From contig NC_089322.1 in NCBI RefSeq assembly GCF_036669915.1, positions 16,298,219 to 16,362,218 on the forward strand: 64,000 bases of DNA, read 5' to 3'. This stretch comes from Pocillopora verrucosa. Its lineage: Eukaryota > Cnidaria > Anthozoa > Scleractinia > Pocilloporidae. Positions 3,345 through 54,558 of this stretch are shown in pieces. The position numbers were made by a program, and so were the translations under genes. The notes beneath the pieces were generated by a model. That model saw only the letters and a program-made list of their open reading frames with translations. It ran no database searches and was not told where the DNA came from. The stretch's first letter is position 1; each line of letters starts with the position of its first letter.

Positions 3345-4241
3345 GATGGGAAATATCTGCTTCCACGCAGTCCTTCACTCTGAGAGAGAACAAACCCCAT
3401 GAGCTGCAAGGCCATGACAACCATTGTTTTCAAACCATAAATCCGAAAGATTTCTTACCGTTTGCAAAGTTGCGCTTTTGTGGAGGATCCTTTGCAGTTA
3501 TCACCTCGACATTGCAGCAAAAACTTCAATTCTGAATTTTTCAATCGACTGGGATCTTAGTTTTTAAGTGAAGACGATATTCCTGGAAGTTGCATAAATG
3601 GAAGAGATTCCAGCAGTTTTCAGGCATAATTTTCTTATTAGCATAACTAAAAACTAAAATCGTGGCCCTTAATGCCTACCTTACCCTCCCTAATCCACGA
3701 TCCACACCAAATGCGACACACAAACGAATTAAAATAGGTTATAACCTTTAGGCTAGTTTCCGTTCTCAGAAGAAAGTAGATTTTACCTTTCCGTTTATCT
3801 CTCGTGACAGCACATGAAAACCAGACATCTGTTTATTGTTACTTTCTCACGCTTCCCTAGAAACATTGAAATCCAAAACTGAAGCTATCAAATGGCGCTC
3901 TGGAGAACACGAGATCTCTTCTGAAGAGAGCCGATTCGCTGCTTTTAACAGAATACTGCCTATTACTTGTGTGGTGTCAAACAAGTTTCTCGGAATCCCA
4001 AACTCACTAAACACCGGTAAATGTAGGGACGATAAAATGAGGTTGATGGTTTATTTCCAAACCATCGTAGCATGTTGTTTTTTGTGATACAGTGGCTACT
4101 GCGACATATTCGGTCACGCTATGAAATCGATTTTACTACGCAGTCACAGAGAAAGTTCACAATAGGTGGATAAAATTGCAATCCAAAACTGTCAATCTCT
4201 GCGCAAAGATCACGCGATCCTACAGAGATCTGATTCGCTGC
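3345..4241. other. TRIM1 5' flank with an internal duplicated promoter block
   Basis: Two related blocks lie about 300 bp apart. Bases 3890-4010 and 4195-4290 share GAGATCT, GATTCGCTGCTTT, an A/T-rich box and TTTCTCGGAAT in the same order. The second copy carries the TATA-like box before the gene. The pair is kept in front of all four TRIM genes (20110-20520, 36240-36640, 51960-52320). An 83-codon frame at 3836-4087 is not kept open in all copies and is not called. Confidence 0.5.
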
Positions 4242-4249
4242 TTTAAATA
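4242..4249 (+). promoter_or_regulatory. TATA-like box of TRIM1
   Basis: TTTAAATA lies 79 bp before the ATG. It is kept at 79-81 bp in all four TRIM copies while nearby bases differ, which supports a core-promoter role. The start site has not been mapped. Confidence 0.5.
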
Positions 4250-4320
4250 AAATACTAATCCAAGTTCAGTTTCTCGGAATCTCAAACAAAACAGGGCTGT
4301 ATTTTTCTCAGCAATTCGTG

Positions 4321-6522
4321 ATGGAGTCGCTTCTAAAAAACCTCAAAGAGCATGTAACATGTTCGATTTGTTTGGATACTTACACTAAACCGAAGACCAT
4401 TGCTTGTCTTCATACGTTCTGCTGTGAATGCCTGGAGAGACATGCACTAACGAGCCAAAAACAAGGGTTTTATCGATGCCCCGAGTGTCAGGCACAAATT
4501 GGCATCCCTGAAGGAAAGCGTTTTGATAATCTACCAAGCAGTTTTCTGCACAACAGTTTGTTGAGTCTTCTCGCCGTTCGACGCAGCGGCGAGGGAGATG
4601 AAATCAGCTGTAGTACATGCCAGAAGAAGAGCGCTGAGATCAACTACTGCTTTGATTGCGAGAAGTTTATGTGCCCAGACTGTGTGAAAGCACACGAAGT
4701 GTTTCGAGAAACTTTGTTTCAAGGACACAAAGTCACACCAGTGCGACAGTTTCAAGCTACAGACTACGAGGCGTTGTTGAAACGGCAGTCGTTTTGCTCC
4801 GTTAAGTATCACGAGAAAGAAGTGACAAAGTTTTTCTGTGTGGGCTGTCAAAGCTGCGTGTGTCAGGTTTGCATCGCCATTGATCACAAGAGCCACGATG
4901 TTGTTCCGCTTGAAAAGGCAGCGGACGATGAAAAAGCAAACATCATTGCCAGAGCAAAGCTGGTCAAAGAGATGAAGGAGGTCTGCCGAGGCGTTATTCG
5001 TGAATTTGAGAACACGGAACATGAGTTGGAAACGAAGATTACCACAGCTAAACGCCAAGTTTCCCAAGCAACCGAACAGATGATGGGAAAGCTTCGCCAA
5101 CTACAACGTGAAGCCATTACTGCCCTAGAGAAGACTCGCGTGTCAAGGATTGAGAAATTACATTCTGGAAAAGCATCGGTTGTCTCTTTGGAAAAGCAAC
5201 TTGACCAAGCATTTGAGTTCAGTAACAACCTGATTGAAAGAAGCTCAAGTTCAGACATAATGCAAAACAAGAAAAATGTAGAAGAACGAATCAAAGACCT
5301 CATCGAGACCACAATGCCTGCACTTCCGGTTAGCTCGTGTGTGGAGTTTGTGTCGACATGTGAACCAGAGAGTTTGAGTCTGGGATTTACGAAGTTCAGC
5401 AAGACAGATGTGCAAGGATCGACCGTGGAAGGACTGGATCAGAATTTCCAAGCTGGTGTAGAGGCAGAGCTACTAATTTGTCCCAAAACAAGTGAAGGAG
5501 AAATCAGAAACACTCAGCACACAGATCGTGTTGAAATACACATAGACCCTGCGGATCAGGTGAGGAGTTTGGTGAAGAGTGAAAAAGAAGATGGAAATTT
5601 CCAAGCAAAATTTGTAGCGAAAGTACCAGGTACTTATAAAATAAAAGTAAAGATAAATGGAGAGAAACTTGCCAAGAGTCCATTTTCTATTCTGGTCAAA
5701 GCACGAGAGTTAAATATTGTAGGCAAGTTGGATATACATGGAGAAATGCTCCGAGGTCCAACCGGCATTGCAGTGAACAGTAAAGGTGTTATTGCAGTGG
5801 CTGATTATCACTGTATCCTGGTATTTGATGAGACAGGAAAGTTTGTGCGAAAAATTGGTTCTTATGGAGATGAGAATGGACAATTAAAGAATCCAGTCGA
5901 CGTCACATTCCTAAACGATGACGAGATTCTGGTGGCCGATCAATTTAATCACCGAATACAGCAGCTGAATGTACAGACAGGAAACTTTGTGAAAAGCTTT
6001 GGAAAAAAGGGAAGTGGAGATGGAGAGTTTAAGTTTCCTGTAAGTGTTTGTATTACAAGTGATGGACGTTTTATCGTTGTAGCGGATTCTTATAATAGCA
6101 GAATTCAGGTGTTTACAATGGATGGTGAACCTGCGTTTAAGTTTGGAAACAGTGGCCCACAAAGGCTGGATCATCCATTCAGCTGCGTTTGTTACGAGGA
6201 AAAGTTCATCGTAACTGACAAGGATAATAACTGTGTGAAAGTGTTTGATGGGAAAGGACAGTTTCTGTACAAGTTTGGAGAAAAAGGAAACGGTGATGGA
6301 CAGTTGAATCAGCCACATGGCTTATGTGTTGACAAGCATAACAACGTTCTCATATGTGATGAGGAAAATAATCGAGTGCAACAGTTTACATTGGAAGGAA
6401 CTTTCACTGGAAAGATAAGTACTAATTTTCAATTAGGATATCCCTGGAGTGTTACCCCGATGCTAGATAATCGGATTTTGGTCACAGACTTCGGAGTGAA
6501 AGAAGTTTACATTCTGAAATGA
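4321..6522 (+). CDS. TRIM-NHL E3 ubiquitin ligase, copy 1 (alpha subtype)
   Basis: An intronless 733-residue TRIM protein of the TRIM2/3/71 class. The RING has C14, C17, C29, H31, C34, C37, C53 and C56, all zinc ligands of an E3 ligase. Two B-boxes follow (about 97-139 and 157-197), then a coiled coil (about 203-333) for dimerisation, a filamin-type Ig domain (about 365-460) and six NHL repeats (465-733) forming a propeller that in relatives binds RNA or protein targets. The start is the ATG at 4321 rather than the GTG just before it. B-box 2 (nucleotides 4797-4880) differs from the other three copies at many positions (for example VKYHEKEV against ENYHKKDV), as if converted from an unseen paralogue. 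Blade 1 lacks one residue present in the other copies (ADYHC against ADxxGHC). The frame is fully open and likely functional. Its biological target is unknown. Confidence 0.93.
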   Translation: MESLLKNLKEHVTCSICLDTYTKPKTIACLHTFCCECLERHALTSQKQGFYRCPECQAQIGIPEGKRFDNLPSSFLHNSLLSLLAVRRSGEGDEISCSTCQKKSAEINYCFDCEKFMCPDCVKAHEVFRETLFQGHKVTPVRQFQATDYEALLKRQSFCSVKYHEKEVTKFFCVGCQSCVCQVCIAIDHKSHDVVPLEKAADDEKANIIARAKLVKEMKEVCRGVIREFENTEHELETKITTAKRQVSQATEQMMGKLRQLQREAITALEKTRVSRIEKLHSGKASVVSLEKQLDQAFEFSNNLIERSSSSDIMQNKKNVEERIKDLIETTMPALPVSSCVEFVSTCEPESLSLGFTKFSKTDVQGSTVEGLDQNFQAGVEAELLICPKTSEGEIRNTQHTDRVEIHIDPADQVRSLVKSEKEDGNFQAKFVAKVPGTYKIKVKINGEKLAKSPFSILVKARELNIVGKLDIHGEMLRGPTGIAVNSKGVIAVADYHCILVFDETGKFVRKIGSYGDENGQLKNPVDVTFLNDDEILVADQFNHRIQQLNVQTGNFVKSFGKKGSGDGEFKFPVSVCITSDGRFIVVADSYNSRIQVFTMDGEPAFKFGNSGPQRLDHPFSCVCYEEKFIVTDKDNNCVKVFDGKGQFLYKFGEKGNGDGQLNQPHGLCVDKHNNVLICDEENNRVQQFTLEGTFTGKISTNFQLGYPWSVTPMLDNRILVTDFGVKEVYILK

Positions 6523-6562: not shown

Positions 6563-7050
6563 CACAGGCGGCCCAAGCTCCAGCTGTGAGATGATCATCT
6601 TGCGCAATAACAGTCATGGCGGAATTATAAGAGTTTGTATGGGCATATTTACGACCGCTCTAAGGTATAAAATAATACGTCAAATTCTCAAAAAAAATAC
6701 CTCACCTTACTTTCACAGCGTATCGCTTGTTATATGACCGCTTACTTTGATGAAAAGAACGCATTTTAGCGAGTTGTCCATTTCGAGGTTTTCAACGTTC
6801 ATAAGAAAAGCCCTTTTCTTATGTACGTTGAAAACCTCGAAATAAACAACTCGCTTAAATGGGCTCTTTTCATCAAAGTAAGCGGTCAGATAACAAGCGA
6901 CACACTGTGAGGTATTTTTTTTTTGAGAATTTGACGTATTTTTTATTCCTTAGAGCGGTCGTAAATATGCCCATACAAACTCTTATAATTCCGCCATGAC
7001 TGTTATTGCGCAAGATGATCATCTCACAGCTGGAGCTTGGGCCGCCTGTG
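6563..7050. mobile_element. 488-bp foldback (palindromic) MITE with 7-bp target duplication
   Basis: Two arms of about 240 bp are near-perfect reverse complements, with ends CACAGGCGGCCCAAGC and its complement and the centre near 6806. The element is flanked by the direct repeat CGTAAGC at 6556-6562 and 7051-7057. The same place downstream of TRIM3 (near 38910) holds a single CGTAAGC and no insert, which is a clean empty site. It has no coding capacity. The long arms would form a cruciform or a hairpin RNA. Superfamily not determined. Confidence 0.9.
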
Positions 7051-20550: not shown

Positions 20551-22755
20551 ATGGAGTCGCTTCTAAAAAACCTCAAAGAGCACGTAACATGTTCGATTTG
20601 TTTGGATACTTACACCAAACCCAAGACCATTGCTTGTCTTCATACGTTCTGTTGTGAATGCCTGGAGAGACATGCACTAGCGAGACAAAAACAAGGGTTT
20701 TATCCATGCCCCGAGTGTCAGGCACAAATTCGCATCCCTGAAGGAAAGCGTTTTGATAATCTGCCGAGCAGTTTTCTGCACAACAGTTTGTTGAGTCTTC
20801 TTGCAGTTCGACGCAGTGGCGAAGGAAATGAGATCAGCTGTAGTACATGCCAGAAGAAGAGCGCTGAGATCAACTACTGCTTTGATTGCGAGAAGTTTAT
20901 GTGCCCTGACTGTGTGAAAGCACACGAAGTGTTTCGAGAAACTATGTTTGAGGGACACAAAGTCACACCAGTGCAACAGTTTCAAGCCTCAGAATACGAG
21001 GCCTTGTTGAAAAGGCAGTCATTTTGCTCAGAGAATTACCACAAAAAAGATGTGATTCGTTTTTTTTGCGTTGACTGTCAAAGGTGTGTATGTCAAGTTT
21101 GCATCGCCACTGATCACAAAAGCCACGATGTTGTTCCGCTTGAAAAGGCAGCGGACGATGAAAAAGCAAACATTATTGCCCGAGCTGAGCTCGTAAAAGA
21201 GAAGAAAGAGGTCTGCCGAGGTGTCATTCGTGAATTTGAGAACACGGAACATGAGTTGGAAACAAATATTACCACAGCTAAACGCCAAGTCTCTCAAGCA
21301 ACCGAACAGATGATGGGAAAGCTTCGCCAACTGGAGCGTGAAGCCATTACTGTCCTCGAGAAGAGTCGCGTGTCAAGGATTGAGAAATTACATTCTGGAA
21401 AAGCATCGGTTGTCTCTTTGGAAAAGCAACTTGACCAAGCATTTGAGTTCAGTAACAACCTGGTTGAAAGTAGCTCAAGTTCAGACATAATGCAAAACAA
21501 GAAAAATGTAGAAGAACGAATCAAAGACCTCATCAAGACCACAATGCCAGCACTTCCGGTTAGCTCGTTTGTAGAATTTGTGACGACATGTGAACCAGAG
21601 AGTTTGAGTCTGGGGTTTACGAAATTCAGCGACACAGATGTACAAGGATCGACCGTGGAAGGACTGGATCAGAATTTCCAAGCTGGTAGAGAAGCAGAGC
21701 TACTAATTTGTCCCAAAACAAGCGAAGGAGAAATCAGAAACACTCAGCACACAGATCGTGTTGAAATACGCATGGACCCTGCGGATCAGGTGACGAGTTT
21801 GGAGACGAGTGAAAGAGAAGATGGAAATTTCCAGGCAAAATTTGTAGCGAAAGTACCAGGTACTTATAAAATGGAAATAAAGATAAATGGACAGAAATTT
21901 GCCAAGAGTCCATTTTCTATTCCAGTAAAAGTACGACAGCTAAATGTTGTAGGCAAGTTGGACGTTCAGGGAATGCTGCAAGGTCCAGCCGGCATTGCAG
22001 TGAACAGTAAAGGTGTAATTGCTGTGGCTGATTTTGAAGGTCACTGTATCCTGGTATTTGATGAGACAGGAAAGTTTATGCGAAAACTTGGTTCTTATGG
22101 AGACAAGGATGGACAATTAAACAAACCAGACGACCTCACGTTCCTAAACGATGACGAGATTCTGGTGGCGGATCAATCTAATCACCGAATACAGCAATTG
22201 AATGTACAGACAGGGAACTTTGTGAAAAGCTTTGGCAAAGAGGGAAGTGGAGATGGAGAGTTTGTGTCTCCTGTAGGTGTTTGTATTACAGGTGATGGAC
22301 GTTTTATCGTTGTAACGGAGTATGCTAACAGCAGAATTCAGGTGTTTACAATGGATGGTGAACCTGTGTTTAAGTTTGGAGACAATGACCCAGAAAGGCT
22401 GGATCATCCCACCAGCTGCGTTTGTTACAAGGAAAAGTTCTTTGTAACTGACCTTAATAATAACTGTGTGAAAGTGTTTGATGAGAGAGGAAAATTTTTG
22501 TACAAGTTTGGAGAAAAAGGAAACGGTGATGGACAGATGAATAAGCCGTATGGCTTATGTGTTGACAAACATAATAACGTTTTCTTATGTGATGGGACAA
22601 ATAATCGAGTTCAACAGTTTACATTGGAAGGAACTTTCACTGGAAAGGCAAGTACTAATATTCAATTTGGATGGCCCTGGGGTGTTACCACAATGCTAGA
22701 TGATCGGATTTTGGTCACAGGCTTCCGCGGGAAAGAAGTTTACATTCTGAAATGA
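20551..22755 (+). CDS. TRIM-NHL E3 ubiquitin ligase, copy 2 (beta subtype)
   Basis: 734 residues, intronless, the same domain order as copy 1 with all RING and B-box ligands present. The RING tail reads CPECQAQIRIPEG. Blade 1 carries ADFEGHC and one residue fewer before it (VQGMLQG). It shares GDKDGQLN and a downstream flank with TRIM4 but not with TRIM1 or TRIM3, which defines the beta subtype. In the propeller it differs from the other copies mainly beside the blade Pro residues (NKPDD, VSPVG, NKPYG, GWPWG) and after the AD-type motif (FEG, QS, YA, LN, GT, FRG). The start is the ATG at 20551. Likely functional; substrate unknown. Confidence 0.93.
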   Translation: MESLLKNLKEHVTCSICLDTYTKPKTIACLHTFCCECLERHALARQKQGFYPCPECQAQIRIPEGKRFDNLPSSFLHNSLLSLLAVRRSGEGNEISCSTCQKKSAEINYCFDCEKFMCPDCVKAHEVFRETMFEGHKVTPVQQFQASEYEALLKRQSFCSENYHKKDVIRFFCVDCQRCVCQVCIATDHKSHDVVPLEKAADDEKANIIARAELVKEKKEVCRGVIREFENTEHELETNITTAKRQVSQATEQMMGKLRQLEREAITVLEKSRVSRIEKLHSGKASVVSLEKQLDQAFEFSNNLVESSSSSDIMQNKKNVEERIKDLIKTTMPALPVSSFVEFVTTCEPESLSLGFTKFSDTDVQGSTVEGLDQNFQAGREAELLICPKTSEGEIRNTQHTDRVEIRMDPADQVTSLETSEREDGNFQAKFVAKVPGTYKMEIKINGQKFAKSPFSIPVKVRQLNVVGKLDVQGMLQGPAGIAVNSKGVIAVADFEGHCILVFDETGKFMRKLGSYGDKDGQLNKPDDLTFLNDDEILVADQSNHRIQQLNVQTGNFVKSFGKEGSGDGEFVSPVGVCITGDGRFIVVTEYANSRIQVFTMDGEPVFKFGDNDPERLDHPTSCVCYKEKFFVTDLNNNCVKVFDERGKFLYKFGEKGNGDGQMNKPYGLCVDKHNNVFLCDGTNNRVQQFTLEGTFTGKASTNIQFGWPWGVTTMLDDRILVTGFRGKEVYILK

Positions 22756-25442: not shown

Positions 25443-25952
25443 ATGAGAGGCTTTTGCACACTGAAACAGAGGAGAAAAATGCTCCGTCTGCAGAGGGTCG
25501 AAGGGAATTGCTATGATCCATCTCTACAACCAGAAAAAATTTTGCCGAAAACCGACTGTCACTCGTCTCGGACGCGGTGATGAATATTCAGATGTTGTTA
25601 TTGACAGTGTGATATCTCCTTTAATGATCAGTCGTGTTCACGCTGAAATTCATTTCAGCAATGGAAAATTCAGAATTGATTGTAAAGGACTGAACGGGCT
25701 GCTAGTCAACAAAACAAAGCGTAGCTCTGCTGTCCTATGCGATGGTGATGTTGTTGTCTTTGGAGGTGCTGGCGTTAAAACGAAAGAAGGACAGAGTTTG
25801 TCAGCTTACGATTCGGAGCTTGTGTATGTTTTTAATGAGGTCTGCCAGAATGATTCTGAAGAAGTGGGCTCCCTTGGGGAAGGAACAAGCGATGGAAGCG
25901 TGCGAAGGCGAAGCAAACGGAAAAAGCCCGCATCACTAAGTGAAGGAGTGAG
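25443..25952 (+). pseudogene. Copy B FHA exon, 1-bp insertion
   Basis: The FHA core (RLGRG, SPLMISRVHAEIHF, KGLNGLLVN) is intact in one frame. The upstream part (MRGFCTLKQRRK...) is in another, because TTGCCGAAAACC replaces TTGCTAAAACC of copy C. The donor is GAG/GTATGG at 25953. Confidence 0.7.
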
Positions 25953-26132
25953 GTATGGGTACATGACACTCAGAAGTAGGGGTAGTAATGATGGAGAGTA
26001 GGGTCACTTGACCTAGAAAAGGAGTGTAGGGTACTAGACAGAGAAATAAATATTCTGGAAAATAAATTCAAGGGGGTGGTGTGGGTTGAGATCATAGAAA
26101 TTACAACAACCTCTTGCCTCTTTCGCCTCCTT

Positions 26133-36672: not shown

Positions 36673-38880
36673 ATGGAGTCGCTTCTAAAAAACCTCAAAG
36701 AGCATGTAACATGTTCGATTTGTTTGGATACTTACACTAAACCGAAGACCATCGCTTGCCTTCATACGTTCTGCTGTGAATGCCTGGAGAGACATGCATT
36801 GACGAGACAAAAACAAGGGTTGTATCCATGCCCCGAGTGTCAGGCACAAGTTCGCATCCCTGAAGGAAATCGCTTTGATAATCTGCCGAGCAGTTTTTTG
36901 CACAACAGTTTGTTGAGTCTTCTTGCTGTTCGACGCAGTGGCGAAGGAAGCGAGATTAGCTGTAGTACATGCCAGAAGAGGAGCGCTGAGATCAACTACT
37001 GCTTTGACTGCGAGAAGTTTATGTGCCCAGACTGTGTGAAAGCACACGAAGTCTTTCGAGAAAGTATGTTTGAGGGACACAAAGTCACACCAGTGCAACA
37101 GTTTCAAGCCGCAGACTACGAGGCCTTGTTGAAAAGGCAGTCATTTTGCTCAGAGAATTACCACAAAAAAGATGTGATTCGTTTTTTTTGCGTGGACTGT
37201 CAAAGTTGTGTATGTCAAGTTTGCATCGCCACAGATCACAAAAGCCACGATATTGTTCTGCTTGAAAAGGCAGCTGACGATGAAAAAGTAAACATCATTG
37301 CCAGAGCGCAGCTGGTCAAAGGGAAGAAAGAGGCTTGCCGAGGTGTTATTCGTGAATTTGAGAAGACGGAACTTGAGTTAGAAACGAACATTACTACCGC
37401 TAAACGCCAAGTCTCTCAAGCAACCGAACAGATGATGGGAAAGCTTCGCCAACTGGAGCGCGAAGCCATTTCTGCCCTCGAGAAGACTCGCGTGTCAAGG
37501 ATTGAGAAATTACATTCTGGAAAAGCATCGGTTGTGTCTTTTGAAAAGCAACTTGACCAAGCATTTGAGTTCAGTAACAACCTGGTTAACAGAAGCTCAA
37601 GTTCAGACATAATGCAAAACAAGAAAAATGTAGAAGAACGAATCGAAGACCTCATCAAGACCACAATGCCAGCACTTCCGGCTAGCTCGTGTGTAGAATT
37701 TGTGACGACATGTAAACCAGAGAGTTTGAGTCTGGGATTTACGAAGTTCAGCAAGACAGATGTGCAAGGATCGACCGTTGAAGGACTGGATCAGAATTTC
37801 CAAGCTGGTGTAGAGGCAGAGCTACTAATTTGTCCCAAATCAAGCGAAGGAGAAATCAGAAACACTCAGCACACAGATCGTATTGAAATACACGTAAATC
37901 CTGCTGATCAGGTGAGGAGCTTGGTGACGAGTGAAAAAGAAGATGGAAATTTCCAAGCAAAATTTGTAGCGAAAGTACCAGGTACTTATAAAATAGAAGT
38001 AAAGATAAATGGACAGAAACTTGCCAAGAGTCCATTTTCTATTCTGGTCAATGCACGAGAGTTAAATGTTGTAGGCAAATTGGACTTACATGGAGAAATG
38101 TTCCAAATTCCTGCCGGCATTGCAGTGAACAGTAAAGGTGTTATTGCTGTGGCTGATCGTGACGGTCATTGTATCCTGGTATTTGATGAGACAGGAAAGT
38201 TTGTGCGAAAAATTGGTTCTCGTGGAGAGGAGAATGGACAATTAAAGTATCCAGTCGAAGTCACATTCCTCAACGATGACGAGATTCTGGTGGCGGATCA
38301 ATTTAATCACCGAATACAGCAGTTGAATGTACAGACAGGGAACTTTGTGAAAAGCTTTGGAAAAGAGGGAAGTGGAGATGGAGAGTTTAAGTTTCCTATA
38401 AGTGTTTGTACTACAAGTGATGGACGTTTTATCCTTGTAGCGGATTTTAATAACAGCAGAATTCAGGTTTTTACAATGGATGGTGAACCTGTGTTTAAGT
38501 TTGGAGACAGTGGCCCAGAAAGGCTGGATCATCCCACCAGCTGCGTTTGTTACGAGGAAAAGTTCATTGTAACTGACAAGAATAATAACTGTGTGAAAGT
38601 GTTTGATGAGAGAGGACAGTTTTTGTACAAGTTTGGAGAAAAAGGAAACGGTGATGGACAATTAAATCAGCCGCATGGCTTATGTGTTGACAAACATAAT
38701 AACGTTTTCTTATGTGATTGGGGAAATAATCGAGTTCAACAGTTTACATTGGAAGGAACTTTCACTGTAAAGACAAGTTCAAATATTCAGTTTGGACGGC
38801 CGTGGAGTGTCACCCCAATGCTAGATGATCGGATTGTGGTCACAGACTGCATAAAGAAAGAAGTTTACATTCTGAAATGA
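36673..38880 (+). CDS. TRIM-NHL E3 ubiquitin ligase, copy 3 (alpha subtype)
   Basis: 735 residues from ATG 36673. An upstream in-frame ATG at 36604 would add 23 residues, but it runs through the TATA-like region and is not conserved in the other units, so it is not used. RING, B-boxes, coiled coil, filamin domain and six NHL repeats are complete. It shares FKFP, ADQFNHR and NQPHG with TRIM1 (alpha subtype). Slot residues of its own are RDG, FN, KN, WG and CIK after the AD-type motif and GRPWS in blade 6. Downstream it lacks the foldback MITE of unit 1. Likely functional. Confidence 0.93.
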   Translation: MESLLKNLKEHVTCSICLDTYTKPKTIACLHTFCCECLERHALTRQKQGLYPCPECQAQVRIPEGNRFDNLPSSFLHNSLLSLLAVRRSGEGSEISCSTCQKRSAEINYCFDCEKFMCPDCVKAHEVFRESMFEGHKVTPVQQFQAADYEALLKRQSFCSENYHKKDVIRFFCVDCQSCVCQVCIATDHKSHDIVLLEKAADDEKVNIIARAQLVKGKKEACRGVIREFEKTELELETNITTAKRQVSQATEQMMGKLRQLEREAISALEKTRVSRIEKLHSGKASVVSFEKQLDQAFEFSNNLVNRSSSSDIMQNKKNVEERIEDLIKTTMPALPASSCVEFVTTCKPESLSLGFTKFSKTDVQGSTVEGLDQNFQAGVEAELLICPKSSEGEIRNTQHTDRIEIHVNPADQVRSLVTSEKEDGNFQAKFVAKVPGTYKIEVKINGQKLAKSPFSILVNARELNVVGKLDLHGEMFQIPAGIAVNSKGVIAVADRDGHCILVFDETGKFVRKIGSRGEENGQLKYPVEVTFLNDDEILVADQFNHRIQQLNVQTGNFVKSFGKEGSGDGEFKFPISVCTTSDGRFILVADFNNSRIQVFTMDGEPVFKFGDSGPERLDHPTSCVCYEEKFIVTDKNNNCVKVFDERGQFLYKFGEKGNGDGQLNQPHGLCVDKHNNVFLCDWGNNRVQQFTLEGTFTVKTSSNIQFGRPWSVTPMLDDRIVVTDCIKKEVYILK

Positions 38881-43117: not shown

Positions 43118-43200
43118 CCGAATACAGCAATTGAATGTACAGACAGGGAACTTTGTGAAAAGCTTCGGCAAAGAGGGAAGTGGAGATGGAGAGTTTGTGT
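43118..43200 (+). pseudogene. 83-bp scrap of a fifth TRIM-NHL gene
   Basis: Matches TRIM2 22185-22267 over 83 bp with one difference (AGCTTCGG against AGCTTTGG), covering the NHRIQQLNVQTGNF segment of an NHL blade. The left side joins R-type relic DNA, and the right side joins TRIM2-type downstream flank (matching about 23748). Two deletions removed the rest of a beta-type TRIM gene here. Confidence 0.85.
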
Positions 43201-43483
43201 TTTACTTATTTACTTTATATATTTTCAGCAGGTTTAAGTAGACTCTTCCGTGAGTATATTTTGGGAGACTGATAGTTGAGCTCGATAATATTAATTGACT
43301 CGTCAGATGGAGCATGCTTTTACATCCAATTCTTTAATGACCACTCATGGACAGTGTCTTGCATGATTAAGCTGTAAACAATTTGACAATTTCGTAGTAC
43401 TTAGTTGCTTTTGGAGGAATTACATCTAAAATGTGATTAGAATTCATCTTAAGACTGAGAAGTGTTTTGAATGCATCAAGTTA

Positions 43484-44340: not shown

Positions 44341-44849
44341 ATGAGAGGCTTTTGCACATTGAAACAGAGGAGAAAAATGCTCCGTCTGCAGAGGATCGAA
44401 GGGAATTGCTATGATCCATCTCTACAACCAGAAAAAATTTTGCTAAAACCGACTGTCACTCGTCTCGGACGCAGTGATGAATATTCAGATGTTGTTATTG
44501 ACAGTGTGATATCTCCTTTAATGATCAGTCGTGTTCACGCTGAAATTCATTTCAGCAATGGAAAATTCAGAATTGATTGTAAAGGACTGAACGGGCTGCT
44601 AGTCAACAAAACAAAGCGTAGCTCTGCTGTCCTATGCGATGGTGATGTTGTTGTCTTTGGAGGTGCTGGCGTTAAAACGAAAGAGGGACAGAGTTTGTCA
44701 GCTTACGATTCGGAGCTTGTGTATGTTTTTAATGAGGTCTGCCAGAATGATTCTGAAGAAGTGGGCTCCCTTGGGGAAGGAACAAGCGACGGAAGCGTGC
44801 GAAGGCGAAGCAAACGGAAAAAGCCCGCATCACTAAGTGAAGGAGTGAG
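44341..44849 (+). CDS. Copy C FHA exon, intact forkhead-associated domain
   Basis: 169 codons plus 2 bases to the GAG/GTATGG donor. FHA signatures: R-L-G-R at 41-44, S63-R64-x-H66 in SPLMISRVHAEIHF, and N84-G85 in KGLNGLLVN, the residues that hold phospho-threonine in this fold. PLMISR is also found in RNF8. A basic RRRSKRKK at 154-161 is a likely nuclear localisation signal. ATG 44341 is used; ATG 44377 is an alternative. A short upstream frame (ATG 44287, 15 codons) precedes it. This is the only intact FHA exon in the window. Confidence 0.7.
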
Positions 44850-46820
44850 GTATGGGTACATGACACTCAGAAGTAGGGGTAGTAATGATGGAGAGTAGGG
44901 TCACTTGACCTAGAAAAGGAGTGTAGGGTACTAGACAGAGAAATAAATATTCTGGAAAATAAATTCAAGGGGGTGGTGTGGGTTGAGATCATAGAAACTA
45001 CAACAACCTCTTGCCTCTTTCGCCTCCTTAGCAGATACTATTTTGTCTGTAACTCTTAAGCGGGATCAAGATCATACCCCAGTTTTTTATTATTTTGTGA
45101 TTTTGCATGAAGACTATCATCTTTCTTCCAAGGGTCAAATACACATTTCCCCCAAAGGTGTAGGGGCATCTTCATATCTTAAGTTGGGGGGCCTGTTTCT
45201 TGAATTACTGTCCCAGTAACTTAATAGGCCCCAAACCATATTTTAAAGTCAATATTTTAAGCCAATAGAGAAGCAGATTCTGACACCCTAAGCAGTTCAT
45301 TTTTAATATTTTGTTGATAGTTGTATTGTATAATTTTCACAACTTTTGAAACCCTCATCTTGAATGAAAGCAGACAGCTGTTCAGGCCTCTTAAGTTACC
45401 AGGATCTTCCAGAAACAGGTCCCCACTCATTACACCTCCTTAACATAACCATTTTGTTGTATGTGTTCATAAAATAAAGTTCCAGTCTGCTAAAAATAAG
45501 ACCAAGTGTCAAGACCTAATCTGAACTTCCTATTGAATGCTGATAGGCCTGTCAAACTTCTAATATTTTTGTAATTTCCAGCTCTCCGTGTGAAAAGAAG
45601 ACTAAAGGCAGCATGGACGATAAGCAGGTAGATAAACTTGGGCTTCTCATTTAATGATTATCAAGTGGCAAATTATTATTTTTTTTTATATCATTTTAAA
45701 GAAAAGGCAAAGAGGAACTGACTTTTAATCCTTAGCATAGTTACAAAGCATAGTACAAATTTGCCTAATATCTTTATCACTAAAAATAAATTTATAGGGT
45801 TATGACCCTAAGGACAGGTTATTTTTAGAGACCTAACCTAAACCATGGTTTTACACATTCAGTGGATCCAAGGCTTTCTCTATAACAGGGTTGTTGATTT
45901 TATTAAATTGTCATCTCCATCTACTGTCAGCTTTTGGCCCTCTTGACAATGTTCACAAAAACAAATGCTCAGATGAAAGTTCCAGCTAAATTGAAGATTA
46001 TTTAGGATGAGGTCTTGTGAAATAATGGCTAAACTTTGTTTAAATAATCAGATCAAGAAAGCAGCTTCTATAGATAAGTTTTAGTACCATGTATTCTAAT
46101 ATTTACTGGGTAGCATATGGACATTATTAAGTTACAGACTTAATCACTTCTGAAAATCCAAGAGTTAAAAGAGATGAATTTTACATTTTATCAGGATTAT
46201 CAATTTCTCAGGGTATCATTCAGTGTAGTACACTGTGTTCTGTGGCATGTATCAAAACCATTAATATTATTTTCCGATCCCAGGTTTTTGAAGTTGATCA
46301 AAAAGCTGATCCACAGGAAGAAGTAAACATCACTGAAGGTATATTTAACTCCAAGAAGTGAATTAAACGAACTTTATCTTATGTAATGTTACAAATGTAG
46401 GATGCAACTCTCCACTGAAGGCATCTGTCTATTGTAGGGATGTGAAGAAAAAAGCCCTGAATGCCTCTTTTGATAAAAAAAGAGTAAATAAAGTCTGTTT
46501 GCAAGCAAAGTGACCCAACTAGTGGGAGATTATTCTGGCTTCCTTAGCATGAAGCAACTAGGAGTTTCACCACTCCCCCCCCTAGATGGGATATCAGCTC
46601 ATCACAAGGTTACCCCCCCAGCATTTCATCAGGCTTCCCTGAAGATTGTCTGGTACCCAGTTATACTCCTCTTACTTTCGATTTAATGCTACATGACTTT
46701 GTATATTCTCCATCAAAATTGCAAGTATTCCTCCAACTGAAGTCTGGGAGAAAATTATTATCAATTGCATTAATGGTTACATAGCTGGGGCTCATGTTAA
46801 ATTTTTACTTCATTTAGTAG

Positions 46821-52353: not shown

Positions 52354-54558
52354 ATGGAGTCACTTCTGAAAAACCTCAAAGAGCATGTAACATGTTCGAT
52401 TTGTTCGGATACTTACACGAAACCGAAGACCATTGCTTGTCTTCATACGTTCTGTTGTGAATGCCTAGAGAGACATGCACTAGCGAGACAAAACCAAGGT
52501 GTTTATCCATGCCCTGTGTGTCAGGCACAAATTCGCATCCCTGAAGGAAATCACTTTGATGATCTGCCAAGCAGTTTTCTGCACAACAGTTTGTTGAGTC
52601 TTCTTGCTGTTCGACGCGGTGGCGAAGGAAGCGAGATCAGCTGTAGTACATGCCAGAAGAAGAGCGCTGAGATCAACTACTGTTTTGATTGTGAGAAGTT
52701 TATGTGCCCCGACTGTGTGAAAGCACACGAAGTGTTTCGAGAAACTATGTTTGAGGGACACAAAGTCACACCAGTGCAAAAGTTTCAAGCTACAGACTAC
52801 GAGGCTTTGTTCAAACGGCAGTCATTTTGCTCAGAGAATTACCACAAAAAAGATGTGATTCGTTTTTATTGCGTGGACTGTCAGAGGTGTATATGTCAAG
52901 TTTGCATTGTCACAGATCACAAAAGCCACGACGTTGTTCCGCTTGAAAAGGCAGCGGACGATGAAAAAGCAAACATCATTGCCAGAGCAAAGCTGGTCAA
53001 AGGGAAGAAAGAGGCTTGCCGAGGTGTTATTCGTGAATTTGAGAAGACGGAACTTGAGTTGGAAACGAACATTACCACAGCTAAACGCCAAGTCTCTCAA
53101 GTAACCGAACAGATGATGGGAAAGCTTCGTCAACTGGAGCGTGAAGCCATTTCTGCCCTCGAGAAGACTCGCGTGTCAAGGATGGAGAAATTACATTCTG
53201 GAAAAGCATTGGTTGTCTCTTTGGAAAAGCAACTTGACCAAGCATTTGAGTTCAGTAACAACCTGGTTGAAAGAGGCTCAAGTTCAGACATAATGCAAAA
53301 CAAGAAAAATGTAGAAGAACGAACCGAAGACCTCATCGAGACCACAATGCCTGTACTTCTGGTTAACTCGAGTGTGGAGTTTGTGTCGACATGTGAACCA
53401 GAGAGTTTGAGTCTGGGATTTACGAAATTCGGCGAAACAGATGTGCAAGGATCGACCGTTGAAGGACTGGATCAGAATTTTCAAGCTGGTATAGAGGCAG
53501 AGCTACTAATTTGTCCCAAAACAAGCGAAGGAGAAATCAGAAACACTCGGCACACAGATCGTGTTGAAATACACTTGGACCCTGCGGATCAGGTGAGGAG
53601 TTTGGCGACGAGTGAGAAAGAAGATGGAAATTTCCAAGCAAAATTTGTAGCGAAAGTACCAGGTACTTATAAAATGAAAGTGAAGATAAATGGACAGAAA
53701 CTTGCCAAGAGTCCATTTTCTATTCTGGTAAAAGTACGAGAGTTAAATGTTGTAGGCAAGTTGGACTTTCAGAGAGAAATGCTCCAAGGTCCTGCTGGCA
53801 TTGCAGTGAACAGTTATGGTGTTACTGCTGTGGCTGATCTTAAAGGTCACTGTATCCTGGTATTTGATGATACAGGAAAATTTGTGCGAAAACTAGGTTC
53901 TTATGGAGACAAGGATGGACAACTAAACACACCAATAGGCGTCACATTCCTAAACGATGATGAGATTCTGGTGGCAGATGAATGTAATCACCGAATACAG
54001 CAGTTGAATGTACATACAGGGAACTTTGTGAAAAGCTTTGGAAAAAAGGGAAGTGGAGATGGAGAGTTAAAGAATCCTGCAAGTGTTTGTGTTACAAGTG
54101 ATGGACGTTTCATCGTTGTAGCGGAGTACGAGAACAGCAGGATTAAGGTTTTTACAATGGACGGTGAACCTGTGTTTAAGTTTGGAGACAGCGGTCCTGA
54201 AAGACTAGATCATCCTCTCAGCTGCGTTTGTTATGAGGAAAAGTTCGTTGTAACTGATCTCTATAATAACTGCGTGGAAGTGTTTGATGAGAAAGGACAG
54301 TTTTTGTACAAGTTTGGAGAAAAAGGAAACGGTGATGGACAGTTGAATCAGCCGTTTGGCATATGTGTTGACAAACATAACGTTTTCTTATGTGAGAGGG
54401 GGAATAATCGCATTCAACAGTTTACGTTGGAAGGAACTTTCATTGGAAAGACAAATACTAATATTCAATTTAAAGCGCCGTGGAGTGTTACCCCAATGCT
54501 AGATGATCGGATTTTGGTCACAGACTTCAAAGGGAAAGAAGTTTACATTCTGAATTGA
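52354..54558 (+). CDS. TRIM-NHL E3 ubiquitin ligase, copy 4 (beta subtype)
   Basis: 734 residues from ATG 52354. The RING ligands are intact, though CSICSD replaces CSICLD and CPVC replaces CPEC of the other copies. Coiled coil, filamin domain and six NHL repeats are complete. Blade 5 lacks one Asn (KHNVFLC against KHNNVFLC). Slot residues are LKG, EC, YE, LY, RG and FKG after the AD-type motif and NTPIG, KNPAS, NQPFG and KAPWS around the blade Pro. It shares GDKDGQLN with TRIM2. The gene lies between exon 8 (50416) and the coiled-coil exon (56346) of FHA-RING copy C, so it may be a nested gene. Likely functional. Confidence 0.93.
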   Translation: MESLLKNLKEHVTCSICSDTYTKPKTIACLHTFCCECLERHALARQNQGVYPCPVCQAQIRIPEGNHFDDLPSSFLHNSLLSLLAVRRGGEGSEISCSTCQKKSAEINYCFDCEKFMCPDCVKAHEVFRETMFEGHKVTPVQKFQATDYEALFKRQSFCSENYHKKDVIRFYCVDCQRCICQVCIVTDHKSHDVVPLEKAADDEKANIIARAKLVKGKKEACRGVIREFEKTELELETNITTAKRQVSQVTEQMMGKLRQLEREAISALEKTRVSRMEKLHSGKALVVSLEKQLDQAFEFSNNLVERGSSSDIMQNKKNVEERTEDLIETTMPVLLVNSSVEFVSTCEPESLSLGFTKFGETDVQGSTVEGLDQNFQAGIEAELLICPKTSEGEIRNTRHTDRVEIHLDPADQVRSLATSEKEDGNFQAKFVAKVPGTYKMKVKINGQKLAKSPFSILVKVRELNVVGKLDFQREMLQGPAGIAVNSYGVTAVADLKGHCILVFDDTGKFVRKLGSYGDKDGQLNTPIGVTFLNDDEILVADECNHRIQQLNVHTGNFVKSFGKKGSGDGELKNPASVCVTSDGRFIVVAEYENSRIKVFTMDGEPVFKFGDSGPERLDHPLSCVCYEEKFVVTDLYNNCVEVFDEKGQFLYKFGEKGNGDGQLNQPFGICVDKHNVFLCERGNNRIQQFTLEGTFIGKTNTNIQFKAPWSVTPMLDDRILVTDFKGKEVYILN

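Follow-up and report, generated by a model that had tools for sequence, protein, structure and literature searches.

Diversifying selection on the putative ligand face of the NHL propeller in a tandem family of predicted TRIM ubiquitin ligases

The window, that is, the whole stretch of 64,000 nucleotides analysed here (G000:C11:16298219-16362218, part of a 353 Mb genome), contains four open reading frames of 733–735 codons, which start at 4321, 20551, 36673 and 52354 with a spacing of about 16 kb, all on the + strand, and encode proteins with 84–88% of their amino acids in common. The original prediction was that the NHL propellers of these TRIM-like proteins vary at the same two places in every blade and that a ligase family diversifies its recognition surface there, possibly for immunity. 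The locus raises the question of whether these places are under diversifying selection, where they lie on the propeller and what such a surface may recognize. The four copies and the propeller of the first one are the following:

4321..6522, + strand: TRIM copy T1, 733 aa, one open reading frame with Pfam RING, zf-B_box, Filamin and NHL (G000:C11:16302539-16304737)
5689..6519, + strand: six-bladed NHL propeller of T1, aa 457-733, from the AF2 model and Foldseek
20551..22755, + strand: TRIM copy T2, 734 aa, NHL at 21919-22752 (locus L028)
36673..38880, + strand: TRIM copy T3, 735 aa, NHL at 38041-38877 (locus L025)
52354..54558, + strand: TRIM copy T4, 734 aa, NHL at 53722-54555 (locus L032)

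The region first pointed out, 5712..6519, is indeed NHL domain, but it covers the first copy alone, the other three domains lying at the positions given above. From the N- to the C-terminus, T1 consists of RING, B-boxes, coiled coil, filamin and six NHL blades. In the Pfam search, RING and B-box scored over the cut-off in all four window copies, and Filamin and NHL were likewise found in all of them. Residues 161-339 of T1 aligned by phmmer with the TRIM3 chain 8amr, which we take to comprise B-box2 and the coiled coil of TRIM3, and by this alignment T1 appears to have the coiled coil expected of TRIM class VII. On their domain content T1–T4 can be assigned to this class (RBCC-filamin-NHL; classes after the sections of PMC3503706 used here), and ligase activity is predicted from the RING residues. 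Among the 29 copies found on the same contig (C11, see below), 28 of the 29 Cys/His columns within aa 1-200 are invariant, the exception being H164, which is Q in one copy. Pfam gave no match to B30.2/SPRY in the four window copies, which have NHL instead and thus lack the domain that would place them among the finTRIMs; nor did it match NACHT or WD40 in them, the domains looked for with regard to the fungal HNWD proteins. The AF2 model of the T1 NHL domain, for which the four window copies alone served as input alignment, shows six blades with a mean pLDDT of 91.4 and a pTM of 0.89. Its best PDB matches in Foldseek were Thin (6xg7), TRIM2 (7b2r) and TRIM71 (8j72), and its neighbours comprised Thin, TRIM2, TRIM71, TRIM3 and Brat.

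The residue strings quoted in the original prediction are present in the translations. Since positions picked after seeing the variation would make a selection test circular, the slots were defined without regard to variability, from the RNA contacts of zebrafish LIN41/TRIM71 in a solved complex. The contacts named in the sections of PMC5908797 used here are C563, R564, R581, S582, R611, K628, D629, Y658, W660, R676, R707, F722, R752 and R770; they were numbered on the 6fpt chain segments with one offset per segment, and all 14 residues match. Each of these 14 named contacts falls at Pro-2, Pro-1, Pro+1, Asp+1 or Asp+2 of a blade, which agrees with the earlier proposal that LIN41-type domains bind RNA or protein with the varying face. 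The five kinds of position in six blades make up 30 slots, not every one of which is itself a LIN41 contact. Their positions in T1 are listed below, together with the blades where only one position exceeded NEB 0.95 in the M8 fit described later:

5752..5763, + strand: blade 1 slot a (Pro-2 to Pro+1), placed by register; NEB>0.95 at Pro-1 alone
5806..5808, + strand: blade 1 slot b (Asp+1; Asp+2 is deleted in T1)
5887..5898, + strand: blade 2 slot a
5941..5946, + strand: blade 2 slot b
6031..6042, + strand: blade 3 slot a
6088..6093, + strand: blade 3 slot b
6169..6180, + strand: blade 4 slot a; NEB>0.95 at Pro+1 alone
6220..6225, + strand: blade 4 slot b; NEB>0.95 at Asp+1 alone
6307..6318, + strand: blade 5 slot a
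6361..6366, + strand: blade 5 slot b
6436..6447, + strand: blade 6 slot a; NEB>0.95 at Pro-1 alone
6490..6495, + strand: blade 6 slot b; NEB>0.95 at Asp+2 alone

In the AF2 model the slots are found in two sets of loops, DA and BC, and among the first residues of strand a. By the strand topology of propellers these elements lie on one face, and because of this placement the 30 slots probably share one face of the propeller. Loops derived from the model vary in 41 of 89 columns on the top face and in 9 of 46 on the bottom face (p 0.0027).

A protein search of the same genome at E<=1e-30 placed the family of T1–T4 (first family) at 61 places, at least 53 of which carry full-length frames without stops (29 on C11, 8 on C8, 15 on C13 and 1 on C10), all counts being lower bounds. 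On C11, 24 copies lie at 16.08-16.60 Mb on the + strand and five at 15.47-15.56 Mb on the − strand. The 29 copies represent 28 distinct coding sequences, and T1 has three near-identical copies in the genome. L037, included in the 29, is open but does not begin with the usual MESLL. Five further loci on C11 are truncated, apparently frameshifted or interrupted by stops, and the pseudogenes L062 and L063 were left out of the selection analysis. A second family occupies at least 63 places with 41 full-length frames without stops, excluding one common to the first family; its most distant rows are 32–42% identical to the query, and L006, the single member scanned for domains, carries RING, B-box, filamin and NHL. 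Together the two TRIM-NHL families comprise at least 94 full-length open frames. Selection was tested in 70 of these 94: 48 of 53 in the first family (29 on C11, 7 on C8, 12 on C13) and 22 of 41 in the second, where the arrays at 4.4 and 3.3 Mb of C13 and the scattered copies were left out. The cluster counts exclude L039 and L053 (outside clusters), L047 and L048 (two copies only) and L038 (truncated).

In the four window copies alone, the predefined slots (30 of 737 columns, with a gap taken as a state) account for 26 of the 175 variable columns, 16 of the 31 with at least three states and 7 of the 9 with four states. Thus, the clustering noticed earlier exceeds chance, and it holds outside the window copies as well. 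Maximum likelihood (ML) analysis of these four gave an omega of 4.23 at the slots versus 0.42 in the rest of NHL (2dL 47.6 against omega 1). Over the 29 copies of C11, mean column entropy was 1.89 at the slots, compared with 0.37 for the remaining NHL columns and 0.22 for the protein outside NHL. When the 737 columns are ranked by variability, slots fill 19 of the first 20 places and 22 of the first 30, and shifting the slot pattern by a single residue lowered the mean entropy to 1.0-1.1. Among these copies 25 distinct slot strings occur.

Nei-Gojobori counting, which needs no tree, gave an omega of 2.18 at the C11 slots (378 pairs; codon bootstrap 1.46-3.62) and 3.09 in the 119 close pairs. 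Elsewhere on C11, counting yielded 0.41 for the rest of NHL and 0.26 for the AB and CD loops; before NHL the values were 0.15 (RING), 0.13 (B-box region), 0.25 (coiled coil) and 0.40 (filamin), showing that the N-terminal, predicted ligase part is under purifying selection. With our own implementation of GY94, ML omega on C11 was 4.81 at the slots versus 0.52 in the rest of NHL (2dL 305 against omega 1), and the slot value was nearly unchanged whether the NHL, the full-gene or the pre-NHL tree was used. A uniform dN/dS at or below 1 was therefore not found at these codons by either approach. The M8 model, given no information on the slots, assigned 10% of the NHL sites to an omega of 4.85 (2dL 308 vs M8a and 325 vs M7; in these M7/M8 fits kappa was fixed from M0, eight beta classes and few optimiser steps were used, and sites were called by NEB). 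Slots account for 20 of the 21 sites with NEB>0.95, the exception being column 473. Consequently, the class of 30 positions is under strong diversifying selection and 20 of them are significant singly. The claim that every blade takes part holds to the extent that all six blades contribute, but the slot beside the proline is weak in two of them (1 and 4), and NEB stays below 0.95 at 10 of the 30 slots.

The variable sites are found in the BC and DA loops and at the starts of strand a, whereas the loops of the opposite face had an ML omega of 0.31 on C11, which is what the proposed one-sided placement leads one to expect; non-slot positions of the DA loops were at 0.69. Hence, the idea that this predicted ligase family diversifies the surface used for recognition is supported, because slots with dN/dS above 1 lie on the face with which LIN41 binds RNA.

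The same pattern was found beyond C11. Members of three further clusters of the first family are 47–58% identical to T1, and their slots gave omegas of 2.21 by counting and 3.00 by ML in C8_18.5 (7 copies), 1.87 and 3.33 in C13_13.0 (5 copies) and 2.61 and 4.69 in C13_14.3 (7 copies), with 0.37-0.55 by counting in the rest of NHL. In the second family, where NHL alone was analysed, the corresponding slot values were 2.72 and 6.58 in C2_13.3 (8 copies), 7.13 and 5.40 in C2_12.85 (5 copies) and 1.97 and 4.58 in C2_11.2 (4 copies). C13_5.9 (5 copies) speaks against the diversifying reading by counting (0.79) and favours it weakly by ML (1.80, p 1.5e-3); it is more diverged (slot dS 0.48), and selection in it is less clear, so that the clusters are not all equally driven. 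Among the 20 most variable columns of each of the seven clusters beyond C11, between 6 and 16 are slots, a less sharp concentration than on C11. Altogether, omega above 1 at the ligand face alone recurs across the clusters, with one of the eight falling short by counting and passing by ML.

A different picture emerged for L001 at 18.68 Mb of C3, a TRIM71/LIN41-like gene that is 72–75% identical to zebrafish segments and was taken, by an assignment made without a tree, as the probable TRIM71 orthologue of the same genome. Between L001 and zebrafish, 27 of the 29 assessable slots are identical, compared with 166 of 234 residues elsewhere. Thus, the expansions change fastest at the very positions that the TRIM71 gene has kept. 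The possibility that the C11 copies themselves are TRIM71/LIN41 orthologues was rejected, as their slots vary between copies and L001 is the better candidate.

The combination of conserved RING and B-boxes with a propeller that varies on one face suggests an E3 ligase whose recognition head can be exchanged. Each copy would bind a different ligand on the slot face, and the RING would then ubiquitinate this ligand or its carrier, while duplication and shuffling, along with point selection on the slots, could generate new specificities. The likeliest ligands would be fast-changing non-self molecules such as viral, microbial or symbiont proteins, in which case the family would most likely be an innate recognition repertoire encoded in the germline. 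That the ligand face is under diversifying selection is shown by the data; the immune role we infer from the pattern of selection, from tandem arrays that contain broken copies and from the analogy to HNWD and finTRIM proteins. Considering all this, we put the probability that we are dealing with a tandem family of predicted TRIM-NHL E3 ligases, whose NHL propeller is the variable recognition head of most likely an innate repertoire, at roughly 68%.

The best surviving alternative, though an improbable one, is that the paralogues have been fitted to different self substrates or serve allorecognition between colonies. It draws on the fact that the selection reported here was measured between paralogues of one genome, and on the upstream regions: an exact-consensus search of 1500 bases upstream of the 29 C11 copies revealed no common ISRE, NF-kB, heat-shock or AP-1 site (ISRE in 3 of 29, the other three in none). 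However, omega above 1 in several separate clusters, together with the change seen between close pairs, is more easily explained by a target that keeps changing than by substrates having been divided up once. As separate observations on these upstream regions, a STAT-like TTCNNNGAA is present in all 29 and was given no weight, and a TATA-like element was noted on the basis of 7 of the 29 sequences.

It is similarly doubtful, and slightly more so, that the repertoire is directed to RNA, the slots diversifying RNA specificity so that each copy silences another viral, transposon or cellular RNA, in the way LIN41 and Brat act on mRNAs. The coincidence of the slots with the LIN41 contacts and the filamin-NHL architecture shared with TRIM71 would suit this alternative, and NHL surfaces are known to switch their mode of RNA recognition, as described in the parts of PMC5908797 used here. 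Against it, the net charge of the slots is −4 to +5 with a mean of +0.9 among the 29 C11 copies, and the NHL domain is acidic in 29 of 29 (−1 to −18), which is not decisive, as acidic patches also occur on the surfaces with which other NHL proteins (Wech, Mei-P26) bind RNA, according to the same parts of that paper. Since slots near charge neutrality in an acidic domain are unlike the basic LIN41 pocket, a protein would be our first guess for the ligand and RNA the second.

Relaxed constraint after duplication, with loops simply tolerating change, is very improbable. Loop and loop-edge residues are weakly constrained in many propellers, the slots are such residues, and C13_5.9 taken by itself would fit by counting. 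Nevertheless, relaxation cannot push omega above 1, and it was rejected for C11, where the whole bootstrap interval of the counting estimate lies above this value; other NHL loops remain at 0.26-0.69, and in TRIM71 the slots are more conserved than the rest.

The remaining concern was that gene conversion, multi-nucleotide mutations, a mutational hotspot or mis-assembly produced the signal. Recombination between the C11 copies is indeed strong (PHI 0.166 vs a permuted mean of 0.263, sd 0.008, minimum 0.240 in 500 permutations), and the copies have a mosaic make-up such as gene conversion would produce. Because recombination can mislead tree-based tests, each blade was also analysed on its own tree, which gave ML omegas of 3.67-6.29 (all p<2e-8), and tree-free and single-base counts were run. 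Many slot codons differ at two or three bases in the 19 nearest-neighbour pairs; among the single-base codon differences of these pairs, 123 nonsynonymous and 9 synonymous ones fell in the slots and 285 and 191 elsewhere, that is, 3.18 versus 0.43 per opportunity. Tree error and multi-nucleotide mutation were rejected for C11 by these results, and a strong hotspot likewise, since slot dS (0.234) is near that of the rest (0.179). The three near-identical T1 copies could be assembly duplicates, but the pooled dS of about 0.2 between window copies is too high for haplotypes, ML slot omega was 5.07 in the 21 distinct C11 copies left after removing the window copies and the T1 near-identicals, and it was 7.12 in the five copies at 15.5 Mb. 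With tree-free, per-blade and single-nucleotide counts in agreement, an artefact is just as improbable as relaxation.

Returning to the innate recognition repertoire, we consider it on balance probable that the two families are germline propeller receptors of a coral-like animal, wired directly to ubiquitin: at least 94 frames with a 30-position "paratope" on one face of the propeller, five residues per blade, which selection has diversified and recombination has shuffled while the RING-B-box-coiled-coil-filamin chassis stayed conserved. GFP-like gene pieces form two clusters in the genome (74 matches to PF01353, all on C1), which suggests a coral; GFP-like genes are also present in a few other animals. 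The host is probably an animal without adaptive immunity. As the exact codons are named, what these ligases recognize becomes directly testable, and the copies form a natural data set on how specificity changes on a six-bladed scaffold, which is of interest for coral immunity, symbiosis and ligand-directed protein degradation. We take the "group 1" of TRIM proteins to include the NHL TRIMs and hence the present family. In the portions of PMC2533329 consulted, this group is conserved and slow (mean human-mouse Ka/Ks 0.13) and the SPRY-bearing "group 2" is fast; a very strong and geometrically clean diversifying signature within the NHL branch itself goes against that account.

Among known systems, TRIM2 and TRIM3 (C-VII TRIMs) have the order RING-B-box-CC-filamin-NHL and are PDB matches of T1 by sequence and fold, but their NHL domains are only 26–30% identical to that of T1 in the fold alignment. 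Tachylectin-2 is a propeller lectin. The coral protein of this name resembles the present family in its positive selection and proposed role in innate immunity, yet it belongs to another family, has no ligase and varies between alleles, with no paralogue array (excerpts of PMC2880987). The nearest published statement, in the parts of PMC11639872 used, is that NHL-repeat orthogroups are expanded in merulinid corals. In oysters, TRIM transcripts including TRIM2-like and TRIM71-like ones occur in modules tied to a parasite-tolerance study (PMC9892467, in the sections consulted), which is weak outside support for a defence role. A word search of the main text of a paper on coral tandem duplications (PMC10236652) found no TRIM or NHL gene, and the open-licence literature, searched partly by the top entries of listings and with most subscription papers and bioRxiv outside its scope, yielded no diversifying selection on NHL propellers.

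TRIM71/LIN41 shares the filamin-then-NHL order and the contact positions, but its contact slots, conserved between zebrafish and this genome, are basic (PMC5908797, in part), and it is represented here by the separate gene on C3. FinTRIMs and TRIM5alpha are likewise multi-copy TRIMs in which loops of a C-terminal recognition domain are diversified by positive selection; that domain is, however, B30.2/SPRY with unrelated loops, in vertebrate lineages and with no blade-repeated pattern in the excerpts of PMC2657112. The fungal HNWD/NWD NLRs (HET-E, HET-D, HET-R) are another expanded family with a beta-propeller recognition domain under concerted evolution, in which four positions per repeat are positively selected on the ligand face, but their propellers consist of WD40 repeats, variable in number, attached to a NACHT NLR that has a HET death domain (PMC4986451, as far as its excerpts go), in contrast to the six NHL blades on a predicted RBCC ubiquitin ligase of an animal found here. 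By the features tested, the present proteins are best classed as a TRIM family that would work like the HNWD and finTRIM systems while appearing to be a member of neither.

In the M8 fit on the NHL domains of the 29 full-length open TRIM-NHL genes of contig C11, a single site with NEB > 0.95 lay outside the 30 slots flanking the blade Pro and Asp, namely alignment column 473, which is located in the DA loop ahead of blade 1.

Upstream of these genes, the TATA-like element TTTAAATA was found approximately 75–80 bases 5′ of the ATG in all seven of the upstream sequences inspected from the 29 copies, two of them belonging to the 15.5 Mb group; the corresponding region of the window is at about 4200–4320. 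In the main array, the consensus sequence of its 24 copies carries a second TTTAAATA-like element some hundreds of bases farther 5′.

Three array copies (G000:C11:16100168, 16181386 and 16575286) match T1, the first TRIM copy of the window, at 99–100% protein identity, and they may have arisen by very recent segmental duplication or by conversion, or may be assembly duplicates. The window also contains the following features:

6563–7050, imperfect palindrome of 488 bases directly 3′ of the T1 stop, 90.8% self-complementary by blastn
25513–26001, open frame with an FHA-domain match
43119–43295, short TRIM NHL-blade remnant within the repeat unit, detected by tblastn
44341–44898, second open frame with an FHA-domain match

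The palindrome may represent a mobile element or an insertion that is itself palindromic. Both FHA-domain frames were co-duplicated with the TRIM units, and no difference was seen between their C-terminal 100+ residues when compared by eye. Elsewhere in the genome, GFP-like gene pieces (74 matches) form two large clusters at 0.67–0.88 Mb and 28.36–28.79 Mb of G000:C1.
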